Notes under the pieces: generated by a model
Databases searched by the model: none
Told to the model about the DNA's origin: nothing
Seen by the model: the letters and a program-made list of their open reading frames with translations, nothing else
Shown here: in pieces, positions 11,928 through 49,304 of the stretch
How positions within the stretch are numbered: position 1 is the stretch's first letter
Layout: every line of letters starts with the position of its first letter
Made by a program: the position numbers and the translations under genes
From: Planctomycetia bacterium
GTDB taxonomy: Bacteria > Planctomycetota > Planctomycetia > Pirellulales > UBA1268
Reading direction: 5' to 3'
Assembly (NCBI GenBank): GCA_014192425.1
Contig: BJHK01000012.1
Span: 36,381 to 100,380, forward strand
DNA: 64,000 nt

Positions 11928-11995
11928 GGCGAAACGACCCATGCGCGCCACACAGGAGCACCCCAGCGTTGCGTTGCCATCGCAACCAACGGTTC

Positions 11996-12127
11996 GGGGT
12001 TGCCCATACCCCGATCGTCGGACGTTCGCTCCGGCCATCCTGGCCTTCGCTCACTCGATGCCGCCTGCGCTCTGCCCTCCGGGCGCCGCTGGCCGGCAAC
12101 GCCGTCTCCCGGGGCATGGGCAACCCC
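11996..12127 (+). repeat. Palindrome-ended dispersed element, copy 1
   Basis: A 132-bp element with inverted-repeat ends. The left end GGGGTTGCCCATACCCCG pairs with the right end CGGGGCATGGGCAACCCC at 17 of 18 bases. The interior carries CGTCGGACGTTCGCTCCGG and TCACTCGATGC, shared with copies at 14903, 36821 and 49096. It lies between ahpD and the phosphodiesterase-like gene. The size and structure resemble a REPIN or MITE, an unautonomous element mobilised in trans. No transposase is present in the window. Confidence 0.85.
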
Positions 12128-12186
12128 TCACGGAGAAATCGACGGTGGCTTCAACGAGAAAGCGATCCCGGTAATACCATGCCACC

Positions 12187-13758: not shown

Positions 13759-14847
13759 ATGTCGAAGACCACGTTGCTCGCAGCCTGCTTCACGATCGTT
13801 TCCCTGGGCAGCGGCCTGGAACCACATGCGGCCCGCGGCGCCGAGCCGGCCACGGACCGGATCGCCGAACTGCGGGCCCGGTTCGCCAATGATCCCCGCG
13901 TGAAGGAGGCCAGCGCGGCACTCGCTGCCGCCGAGAAGGCACTGGAAAAGAAACTGACCGGCGATGCCGCGATCGCCGAGGCACGGCGGGCGGAGCAGGC
14001 CGCCCGCGACAACGTCGCCAAGGCGGAGCGGGTCGCGGCGGACGCCGACCCGCGGGTCCAGGAGCACCGCCGCGCACTGGAAACTGCCCGGGCCCGGGCA
14101 GCCGAACTCGAACTGCAGCGCCGGCTTGAGCAGACCCGGGCGGACCACCAGCGGAACGAGACCGCCCGCCGGCCCGATCTGCAGGCACTGCGCACGGCGG
14201 CCCGGTTCGAACCCCACTCCCGCGCGGTTGCCGAATCCGACCCCCGGCTGGCCGCCGCCCGGAGGAAGCTCGAAGAGGCCGATGCCGCGCTCGACAGGAA
14301 GACGAAGGAACTGCTCAAGGACCTGCCGGAGATCAAGGCCGCCCAGCGGGCCCGCAAGGATTTCGACGACGCCGTGGCCGCGAGCCCGGCATACAAGGCG
14401 GCCGAGGCCGCCCGCCGCGCGATCGCGGAGAAGGTCGCGGCCGACGAGAAGGTGCAGGCCCAGGCCGGGAAGCTGAAGGCGGCCGGCGACGCCCAGGCGC
14501 AGCATCGCGACCAGATCGAGGTGATCGAGAAGAAAATTCGCAATGCCGCCGAGCAGGCCGCCGCCAAGGATGCCGGCGTCCGCGAGGCCGTCAAGGCCGC
14601 CGAGGCGGCGCGGGCCCGCGTCGGCCAGACGGTCGAGGATCGGGCGGCCGTGGAGCGCAAGGCCCGGCAGGCGGCCCGGGCCGTCTGGGACGAGAAGGTG
14701 AAGGCAGTCATCGCCGAGAATCCCGAGGCGAAGGCGCTCCTCAAGGAGATGCAGTCGCTGGAGGAGAAGTTGCGGAAACTGCGCTCGCAGGTGGGAGAAC
14801 TCAGCCGCCTGGTCGTGCAGGAGCCATCGCCCAGCCGGATGCCGTGA
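13759..14847 (+). CDS. Secreted coiled-coil protein of unknown function
   Basis: 362 residues. An N-terminal signal peptide (TTLLAACFTIVSLGSG, cleavage near residue 28) is followed almost entirely by Ala/Arg/Glu/Lys-rich heptad-like sequence. The repeated pattern DPRVKEA / DPRVQEH / DPRLAAA appears at about 45, 95 and 155. A GGAGGG lies about 8 bases before the ATG. It was not matched to any named family. A periplasmic structural role is plausible from composition only. The gene is isolated, with its own promoter region (13570-13758) and a dispersed element just downstream. Confidence 0.65.
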   Translation: MSKTTLLAACFTIVSLGSGLEPHAARGAEPATDRIAELRARFANDPRVKEASAALAAAEKALEKKLTGDAAIAEARRAEQAARDNVAKAERVAADADPRVQEHRRALETARARAAELELQRRLEQTRADHQRNETARRPDLQALRTAARFEPHSRAVAESDPRLAAARRKLEEADAALDRKTKELLKDLPEIKAAQRARKDFDDAVAASPAYKAAEAARRAIAEKVAADEKVQAQAGKLKAAGDAQAQHRDQIEVIEKKIRNAAEQAAAKDAGVREAVKAAEAARARVGQTVEDRAAVERKARQAARAVWDEKVKAVIAENPEAKALLKEMQSLEEKLRKLRSQVGELSRLVVQEPSPSRMP

Positions 14848-14902
14848 ACGGATACTCCTGGGAGCACGTTCTTGTTGACATCTGTCGTCGATGCATCCGT
14901 GA

Positions 14903-15034
14903 GGGGCTGCCCATGCCCAGACAGGCGGCGTTGCTGGCAAGTGAAAGCAGGAAGCCGAAACGCCGCCAGCATCGAGTGAACGCAGGCCTGGAGGGCCGGA
15001 GTGAACGTCCGACGGTTCGGGGCATGGGCAGCCC
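14903..15034 (-). repeat. Palindrome-ended dispersed element, copy 2 (inverted)
   Basis: About 132 bp. The left end GGGGCTGCCCATGCCC pairs with the right end GGGCATGGGCAGCCC. Reverse-complemented, its interior matches copy 1 (CGTCGGACGTTCACTCCGG, TCACTCGATGC). It lies 56 bp after the coiled-coil gene in a region convergent with the DUF971 gene. The remainder up to 15283 has no recognised gene. Confidence 0.85.
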
Positions 15035-15283
15035 TGAACCATCGGCTCGTTGTGTCAACTATTGGATGCTCTCGGTAATGGCATGCTGCATCGTTCGTGC
15101 CGCTGCGAGCCTGAGCCGGTTCGACAGCGCGACGATCGACGCCCGGGTCGTGGCGGCCGGCCCGCTCTTCCCGGCCGCACCACATCCCTGACGGCCCTCG
15201 TTCTCGGCACCGGCACGTGGATGGGCCGGGCGGCCGCCCGCCGGGTGGACGCGAACCGCCGCCGACCGTGACCGTCCGCGGCG

Positions 15284-36820: not shown

Positions 36821-36954
36821 GGGGTTACCCATGCCCCATCGCCGGACGTTCGCTCCGGGCATCCATGCCCTTCGCTCGCTCGGACCTGCCTGCGCTTCGG
36901 CCTCCAGCCTTCGCTTGTCAGCTCACGCCGGCTCCCGGGGCACGGGCAACCTCT
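36821..36954 (+). repeat. Palindrome-ended dispersed element, copy 3
   Basis: About 134 bp in the same orientation as copy 1: GGGGTTACCCATGCCCC at the left end, CGGGGCACGGGCAACC at the right end, interior CGCCGGACGTTCGCTCCGG. It lies between the NCS2 permease and the altered lactate permease. Some of the right-hand interior has diverged. Confidence 0.8.
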
Positions 36955-47299: not shown

Positions 47300-48258
47300 C
47301 AGCAAGCAGGAAGTCGGGCGCCGGCGTGGGGGCGGCAAAAGTCTCGTCGCTGAGGCAGGATAGCCTCACGCTCCTCGACCGTTTGCCGACCCCCTCGCCT
47401 CCTCAGCACCACCGGGAGCCGGGCTCTGCCCGGCGACCGAAAACCGGAGCAGACGCTATGTCGGCTGCGACGGCGCGAAAATCAGCCGGATGGGGGTGGG
47501 ACGGGCGCGATGGTGCGCGCGTTCGTGGAACTCGCCCGGAATGCGACCACAAAAGCATGACAGCAAGCAGGAAGTCGGGCGCCGGCGTGGGGGCGGCAAA
47601 AGTCTCGTCGCTGAGGCAGGATAGCCTCACGCTCCTCGACCGTTTGCCGACCCCCTCGCCTCCTCAGCACCACCGGGAGCCGGGCTCTGCCCGGCGACCG
47701 AAAACCGGAGCAGACGCTATGTCGGCTGCGACGGCGCGAAAATCAGCCGGATGGGGGTGGGACGGGCGCGATGGTGCGCGCGTTCGTGGAACTCGCCCGG
47801 AATGCGACCACAAAAGCATGACAGCAAGCAGGAAGTCGGGCGCCGGCGTGGGGGCGGCAAAAGTCTCGTCGCTGAGGCAGGATAGCCTCACGCTCCTCGA
47901 CCGTTTGCCGACCCCCTCGCCTCCTCAGCACCACCGGGAGCCGGGCTCTGCCCGGCGACCGAAAACCGGAGCAGACGCTATGTCGGCTGCGACGGCGCGA
48001 AAATCAGCCGGATGGGGGTGGGACGGGCGCGATGGTGCGCGCGTTCGTGGAACTCGCCCGGAATGCGACCACAAAAGCATGACAGCAAGCAGGAAGTCGG
48101 GCGCCGGCGTGGGGGCGGCAAAAGTCTCGTCGCTGAGGCAGGATAGCCTCACGCTCCTCGACCGTTTGCCGACCCCCTCGCCTCCTCAGCACCACCGGGA
48201 GCCGGGCTCTGCCCGGCGACCGAAAACCGGAGCAGACGCTATGTCGGCTGCGACGGCG
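47228..48258. repeat. 261-bp tandem repeat, four units, including the pepA 3' end
   Basis: Units begin GATGGGGGTGGGACGGGCGC at 47228, 47489, 47750 and 48011, an exact 261-bp period (87 codons). Each contains the last 72 bases of pepA including its stop. It also contains a GC-rich spacer (TCGCTGAGGCAGGATAGCC, GAGCCGGGCTCTGCCCGGCG) and the module GCAGACGCTATGTCGGCTGC. Copies 2-4 are virtually identical; copy 1 differs at an A/G in the pepA tail (ACGAAAGC against ACAAAAGC). No new gene is evident in the array. Open frames on both strands arise because the period is a multiple of three. Confidence 0.95.
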
Positions 48259-49040
48259 CGACAGCCAGCCAATCGCCCAAGCCGCCGGAAGACGGCAGAA
48301 GTCGCGTCGCTGAGGCGAGGATACGCCTCACGCTCCGCGTCCTTCCGCCGATCTCCCGGCTTCGTCAGAGCGCACGTGCAGCACCCCAAGCCGGGCGGTA
48401 GCCCGGCGCCGGAGCCGGGCTCCGCCCGGCGACCGCAAGCCGGAGCAGACGCTGTGTCGGCTGCGACGGCGCGAAAGGCAGACGCTGTGTGGGCTGCGAC
48501 GGCGCGACAGCCAGCCAATCGCCCAAGCCGCCGGAAGACGGCAGAAGTCGCGTCGCTGAGGCGAGTATACGCCTCACGCTCCGCGTCCTTCCGCCGATCT
48601 CCCGGCTTCGTCATATCACGCGTGCAGCACCCCAAGCCGGGCGGTAGCCCGGCACCGGAGCCGGGCTCCGCCCGGCGACCGCAAGCCGGAGCAGACGCTG
48701 TGTCGGCTGCGACGGCGCGAAAGTCAGACGCTATGTCGGCTGCGACGGCGCGACAGCCAGCCAATCGCCCAAGCCGCCGGAAGACGGCAGAAGTCGCGTC
48801 GCTGAGGCGAGGATACGCCTCACGCTCCGCGTCCTTCCGCCGATCTCCCGGCTTCGTCAGAGCGCACGTGCAGCACCCCAAGCCGGGCGGTAGCCCGGCG
48901 CCGGAGCCGGGCTCCGCCCGGCGACCGCAAGCCGGAGCAGACGCTGTGTCGGCTGCGACGGCGCGAAAGTCAGACGCTGTGTCGGCTGCGACGGCGCGAC
49001 AGCCAACGCGCCAGCCAACGCGACAGCCAACGCCATGGCG
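48259..49040. repeat. 246-bp tandem repeat, three units, plus short terminal repeats
   Basis: Units start CGACAGCCAGCCAATCGCCC near 48259, 48505 and 48751, a period of 246 bp (82 codons). Each unit includes hairpins such as CCGGGCGGTAGCCCGG and GCCGGGCTCCGCCCGGC. It ends with the same GCAGACGCTGTGTCGGCTGC module as the 261-bp array, which is duplicated at each unit end. After the third unit a short repeat (CAGCCAACGCG) follows to about 49033. No gene is supported here. Confidence 0.92.
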
Positions 49041-49095: not shown

Positions 49096-49227
49096 GGGGT
49101 TGCCCGTGCCCTGGGAGCCGGCGTTGCTGGCCAGCGCAGCCAGGATGGCGTAGCGCAGCCAGCATCGAGTGAGCGGAGGGCATGAGGCCCGCAGCGAACG
49201 TCCGGCGAGCGGGGCACGGGCAGCCCC
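49096..49227 (-). repeat. Palindrome-ended dispersed element, copy 4 (inverted), with an extra partial end
   Basis: 132 bp: GGGGTTGCCCGTGCCC at the left and GGGGCACGGGCAGCCCC at the right. The interior is CAGCATCGAGTGAGCG and GCAGCGAACGTCCGGCGAGCG, in the orientation of copy 2. A further partial right end (CGGCGAACGTCGGGCGACGG then GGCTTGGCAGGCCCG) lies at about 49241-49281. It is located between the tandem arrays and the convergent pepF gene. Confidence 0.85.
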
Positions 49228-49304
49228 GTTTCGTCAACGAAGCGCGGCGAACGTCGGGCGACGGGGCTTGGCAGGCCCGAACCGACGCCAGAGCGCCCTT
49301 CAGG

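Follow-up and report, generated by a model that had tools for sequence, protein, structure and literature searches.

The window, i.e., the whole stretch of 64,000 nucleotides analyzed here (G000:C12:36381-100380, where G000 denotes the source genome, a 3.98-Mb assembly of 70 contigs), contains four copies of a short repeat with inverted ends, all of them located between genes predicted by a codon-based gene model (Table 1). The initial annotation had described four elements of about 132 bp, two in each orientation and all intergenic. We aligned the four copies end to end over their full length, with a mean column identity of 82%, and both orientation and intergenic placement were borne out by the gene model and by a covariance model built from 25 copies of the source genome. 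This covariance model gave exactly four matches in the window and no further ones (E-values of 1e-21 to 1e-26). With up to three mismatches allowed, the end motif occurs nine times in the window versus 0.5 expected, and eight of these occurrences are the paired ends of the four copies. The partial copy previously placed at about position 49241 also proved to be real: it is a left-end segment and a member of a recurrent class of extra ends. The length of about 132 bp holds for the core, but the element is slightly longer, with GGNTC (commonly ACGGTTC) before the terminal GGGG and TCNCGG (commonly TCACGGAT) after the terminal CCCC among 248 copies. The hairpin potential noted earlier is present on both strands in three copies, which fold as DNA far better than shuffled sequences, whereas copy 3 is clearly better only on the reverse-complement strand (z of -3.96 versus -1.20).

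Table 1. Features of the repeat family in the window. The strand is that of the structured strand, which is the reverse complement of the orientation used in the initial annotation.
Feature	Position	Strand	Length or sequence	Remark
Core copy 1	11996..12127	-	132 bp	
Extended ends of copy 1	11989-11995 and 12128-12134		ACGGTTC and TCACGGA	
Composite 2, outer arm before copy 2	14853..14902		TACTCCTGGGAGCACG...TTGTTGACA...	boundaries approximate
Core copy 2	14903..15035	+	133 bp	
Composite 2, opposite outer arm	15036..15078		...TGTGTCAACTATTGGATGCTCTCGGTA	boundaries approximate
Core copy 3	36821..36953	-	133 bp	
Core copy 4	49096..49227	+	132 bp	
Isolated extra end beside copy 4	49245..49284	+	~34 nt of core left end plus GAACCG flank	

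No Rfam match was obtained in the window at the gathering threshold, nor over the copies in four loci at an E-value of 10, and a known structured RNA family was ruled out on this basis. Apart from the repeats, the stretch at about 48000-49000 that precedes copy 4 (L004 ~637-1410, G000:C12) aligns to itself at a shift of 246 bases with 97% identity, which suggests a tandem repeat of long period with many GTGTCGGCTGCGACGGCGC motifs.

A covariance-model search over the source genome, a check suggested by the initial annotation, revealed a multicopy family that extends beyond the window, with 64 copies or one per ~62 kb; six additional model hits correspond to these copies in antisense and were not counted. 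The density expected earlier (one copy per about 16 kb, i.e., hundreds genome-wide) is therefore too high for this genome, while the relative G009 carries at least 144 copies (144 of 150 candidates scored) and G018 carries 30. Within the same family, 34 of 37 genomes gave matches to the model, and none was obtained in the 23 genomes searched that belong to other families of the order. Moreover, a pattern combining the left end with the first inner block hit planctomycete metagenome-assembled genomes, largely lake-derived, among the matches listed in a public genome collection, one record of which is titled only 'bacterium'. As far as searched, this is a high-copy element family confined to one planctomycete lineage. 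A viral carrier was also considered and rejected, the end pattern being absent from the viral contig collection searched.

Almost all copies (232 of 236) are intergenic. They lie between convergent genes in 48% of cases, compared with 21% of intergenic gaps, and between divergent genes in 9%, compared with 27%. Among co-directional genes, no significant orientation bias was observed (47 versus 33 by strand). REPs, too, favor positions downstream of genes and are able to provide the stop codon (PMC3733652).

Positions turn over between close relatives. In the sister pair G009/G018, whose flanking DNA is ~82-90% identical, none of the element sites of G009 is occupied in G018 (0 of 20 comparable orthologous intergenic sites), most of these stretches having diverged too far for a clean empty site to be recognized. 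The empty sites in relatives that the initial annotation proposed to look for were found as unoccupied positions, but not as a clean virgin site. Copies 1 and 2 of the window show no synteny with the nearest relatives. The cleanest filled/unfilled pair, L226/L231, may represent a deletion scar rather than a virgin site because one element end remains at the unfilled site, and a similar remnant, a shell with one end whose core interior is missing, was seen in the source genome (L438). At L223/L227, which are orthologous and share the site by descent, the flanks and ends are near-identical and the interiors have diverged. The nearest neighbor of a copy comes from the same genome in 62% of cases, compared with 15% after permutation. 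Identical locations in distant relatives, which would have pointed to a conserved regulatory RNA, were searched for and not obtained. At one of three window loci examined, an element lies downstream of the same gene in three congeners; for copy 3, the congeners G009 and G017 carry one just downstream of the same gene and in the same orientation.

Further evidence of mobility comes from larger units. Nine copies of the source genome are embedded in a unit of 227 or 254 bp that is near-identical from ATACGGGTCACACTTGACCC to GGATCAAGTGGGCGCCGTAT and surrounded by unrelated sequence. When the unit ends are taken as TACGG...CCGTA, the flanking triplets are identical in eight of the nine cases (TGA/TGA, TCA/TCA, TCA/TCA, TTA/TTC, TCA/TCA, TCA/TCA, TGA/TGA, TGA/TGA, and TAA/TAA), and in at least four units this triplet doubles as the stop codon for a frame of 182-498 codons. 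The 254-bp form holds a 27-nt internal insertion, which accounts for most of the 158-159-bp variants among copies of this genome. Duplication of a TNA target is stated to be typical of the IS1031 group within the IS5 family (PMC12016507), and for this one subfamily we infer with good reason that the unit was mobilized by an IS5/IS1031-type enzyme. A target site duplication (TSD) is evident for the 227/254-bp unit only: no duplication belonging to the core itself was detected in 42 copies with class A flanks, and no convincing signal was obtained over 248 copies. Taken together, MITE-like mobility in trans is well supported by the non-coding, multicopy nature of the element, its positional turnover, its lineage-specific bursts, and the larger unit with terminal inverted repeats (TIRs) and TSD.

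Other copies have other surroundings. Copy 2 of the window lies in a second larger unit, composite 2, whose first outer arm comes just past the stop codon at 14845-14847 that terminates the predicted gene upstream; similar arms (TACTCCTGGGAGCACG.../...GATGCTCTCGGTA) occur at three further loci of the source genome (L019, L026, and L029) and in another genus (G028: L464, L466, and L467). G009 shows a third arrangement, which often begins directly after a TAG and is followed by another hairpin repeat. This second repeat, GGAAGCCCGGAGCGCGAGCGACGGG...CCCCGCGCTCGCGCTTGGGGCTTCC, often stands directly after the element (L348-L367; e.g., right flanks L086:5343 and L360:14121), and similar sequence is also present in intergenic regions of G018. 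Further lineage-specific flanks were observed in G028, G032, and G008; the repeated unit of G028 is apparently only ~150 bp long, without an evident TSD. In G032 (L469-L479), a small hairpin, GGGACAGGCTTCAGCCTGTC, often occupies the left flank of the element. Inverted outer arms exceeded the 99% null in only 15 of 245 copies and are therefore a property of some subfamilies. Since only the GGNTC and TCNCGG adjoining the core are general, the core is what stays constant in this family while the outer parts vary.

This constant part has a conserved fold. For the structure test, we used 77 copies less than 88% identical, aligned on the structured strand. The fold comprises 41 pairs arranged in an outer stem, a short second stem, and two inner hairpins, and 94.8% of the cells are paired. 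Changes on both sides were seen in 32 of the 41 pairs, with 361 such cells compared with 92.5 in shuffled alignments and at most 73 when the fold was slid, although this last control somewhat favors the fold, which was refined on the same alignment. RNAalifold independently gave a similar fold, and the 25 copies of the source genome alone show double-sided change in 15 of 39 pairs. On the folded strand, GU exceeds AC by 125 to 29 (26 pairs versus 6; sign test, p 0.0005), and by 217 to 83 over 230 copies. A palindrome preserved solely as duplex DNA should lack this bias, which marks one strand as the folded one; the bias may reflect either selection on that strand or strand-biased mutation of an exposed strand. 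The unpaired positions are conserved as well. The first apical loop carries a near-invariant GGA (G, G, and A in 76, 76, and 77 of the 77 copies), the G and A of the second are found in 77 and 76 copies, and an unpaired AGNGA joins the two inner hairpins. The strand-specific covarying fold is the unusual part of the element.

The two ends of the core do not behave alike. An extra left end was found outside the left end in 20 of 238 copies and an extra right end outside the right end in one of 238, and, at the threshold applied, 12 inverted doublets are right-to-right and none is left-to-left. Extra ends typically break off near position 34, where an inner hairpin has its base, and the truncated unit L441 is cut close to this point. 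As the presumed mechanism, slippage or an interruption of copying that always runs in one direction would fit this polarity. Separately, L006:1324-1559 (G000:C21:22410-22620) contains an array of 59-bp units, each consisting of the element left end plus 25 nt of other sequence, with a full copy at its end.

Based on these observations, our preferred reading, held with a confidence of 0.68, is that the core is the structured center of a non-autonomous MITE-like family whose youngest form is the 227/254-bp IS5/IS1031-type unit and whose fold is read as a single strand. The family would have been amplified separately in each lineage by movement in trans. In the source genome, the youngest form would consist of the core and outer inverted arms with TACGG...CCGTA ends, which would have entered its target as double-stranded DNA and left a 3-bp TNA duplication of the kind produced by IS5/IS1031-type DDE transposases, and the moving would probably be done by a DDE enzyme encoded elsewhere. 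Insertions would persist chiefly at the 3' ends of genes and at stop codons. The folded core strand, with its branched fold, GGA loops, and AGNGA joint, may be recognized in single-stranded form, either as ssDNA or as a transcript, by a factor that favors persistence of the element, and the extra ends and one-ended remnants probably arise from strand slippage at the inner hairpins. Against this reading, an autonomous partner with matching ends was not found: the three DDE_Tnp_1 genes of the draft source assembly lack TACGG-type ends, its Y1 transposase gene lacks matching ends as well, and a TIR-pattern scan of the same genome revealed no transposase locus. An autonomous long version was rejected too, as the end scan of the loci covered gave isolated or tandem ends only and no gene-bearing unit.

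The conserved loops raise the question of a dispersed structured RNA, transcribed copies of which would bind or titrate CsrA or another RNA-binding protein through the two GGA loops and thereby be kept. GGA loops are the Csr/Rsm target type (PMC4005645), and near-invariant GGA in both apical loops above covarying stems, along with the wobble asymmetry on one strand, would suit such a role. We consider it unlikely: csrA (PF02599) was detected in all 60 genomes searched, with four in the source genome, but it is equally present in genomes without the element and hence uninformative as a discriminator; the lack of significant orientation bias relative to neighboring genes implies that many copies would be antisense; and positions are not conserved. 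Among the relatives (G001-G059), genomes of the same family typically have four csrA genes, and those of other families of the order have 4 to 14.

A SINE-like interpretation, in which the folded non-coding RNA or ssDNA would itself be the replicating entity, appears rather improbable. Selection would then act on each individual copy through its strand-specific structure and its GGA loops, and the entity would ride different DNA transposon shells and leave one-end extras, for which the base of one and the same inner hairpin is the usual cutting point.

We likewise give little credence to a passive DNA repeat, whose hairpins would be kept by template-switch correction of quasi-palindromes as the DNA is replicated and which would spread by recombination or gene conversion without a selected structure. 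Template switching can create and maintain hairpins and thereby mimic compensatory change (PMC8794818), slippage is apparent from the extra ends, one-ended remnants, and tandem copies, and the L223/L227 pair, with diverged interiors between near-identical ends, agrees with it. Nevertheless, such correction should be strand-symmetric, which the excess of GU over AC is not, the loop GGA and joint AGNGA are conserved though unpaired, and a common unit bearing TIR and TSD surrounds nine of the copies.

Finally, a REPIN-type palindrome doublet, moved in trans in its single-stranded DNA form through a REP-associated Y1 transposase (RAYT), would share with REP/REPIN biology the hairpin size, intergenic gene-3'-end location, strand-specific wobble, and inverted doublets (PMC3116915, PMC3733652), and the core alone has no TSD. 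The initial annotation had suggested looking for such an enzyme, but the sole Y1_Tnp gene of the source genome (G000:C4:110161) has different ends, GGTGCCAGCCACC, unlike the repeat, and at an E-value of 0.001 no Y1_Tnp was detected in the draft assemblies of G009 (95% complete) and eight more genomes with at least 30 copies each (G012, G013, G014, G018, G020, G026, G032, and G035). RAYT was rejected as the mobilizer on account of these unrelated ends and of the copy-rich genomes without a Y1_Tnp hit, and, as a 3-bp TSD like that of the 227/254-bp unit is not expected of Y1 transposition, the REPIN-type alternative is largely refuted and improbable. Of the two types proposed initially, REPIN-like or MITE-like, only the latter is supported. 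The Y1_Tnp gene itself (L031:1137-1945, G000:C4) is flanked by 34-nt inverted repeats (GAAAAGGTGCCAGCCACCAAATCTGG...). Because its GGTGCCAGCCACC palindromes recur near G000:C30:28305 (L439), the source genome may harbor a separate REP/RAYT-type family, apart from the 132-bp element.

In summary, the 132-bp repeat is a previously uncatalogued, non-coding, high-copy mobile element of one lake planctomycete family. Descriptions of bacterial MITEs and REPs often present them as simple hairpins, whereas here strongly diverged copies keep, through compensatory change on one strand, a branched fold with its unpaired motifs fixed. Selection on a folded strand (ssDNA or RNA) in a bacterial miniature element thereby becomes testable, as does the identity of a host factor that may read the fold. 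The element can also serve to follow how the genomes of this uncultured lake lineage turn over.

With respect to known systems, the GGA in the hairpin loops recalls Csr/Rsm-type sponge RNAs. REP/REPIN sequences with RAYT share the hairpin formation, gene 3' ends, GT wobble, inverted doublets, and tandem clusters (PMC3733652), but the present family has no cognate Y1 transposase, its core is much longer and branched, and the GTAG/CGTC tag that defines them (PMC3733652) is absent at the consensus ends GGNTC and TCNCGG. ERIC, a 127-bp enterobacterial intergenic repeat, is similar in length and is also an imperfect, intergenic, high-copy palindrome (PMC2229807); it differs in sequence and host phylum, and TA termini and a TSD are listed for it in a published table (PMC2229807), whereas the present core is bounded by GGGG/CCCC and shows no TSD. 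The Correia/NEMIS elements of Neisseria are hairpin MITEs of ~107/155 bp near genes, with variants produced by internal insertion (PMC2229807), to which the 132- and 159-bp forms with the 27-nt internal insertion are the counterpart; their termini are 5'TA3' (PMC2229807), while the unit described here duplicates TNA. Both the 132-bp core and the 227/254-bp unit have the generic features of MITEs, being short, non-coding, and multicopy with inverted terminal repeats. IS5-family (IS1031 group) MITEs share the short inverted ends, the absence of coding capacity, and the 3-bp TNA duplication (TGA/TCA/TAA). The present family differs from them in that no matching autonomous IS was found in the source genome, and in that its center is a covarying branched fold, which is found in many units with other outer arms.
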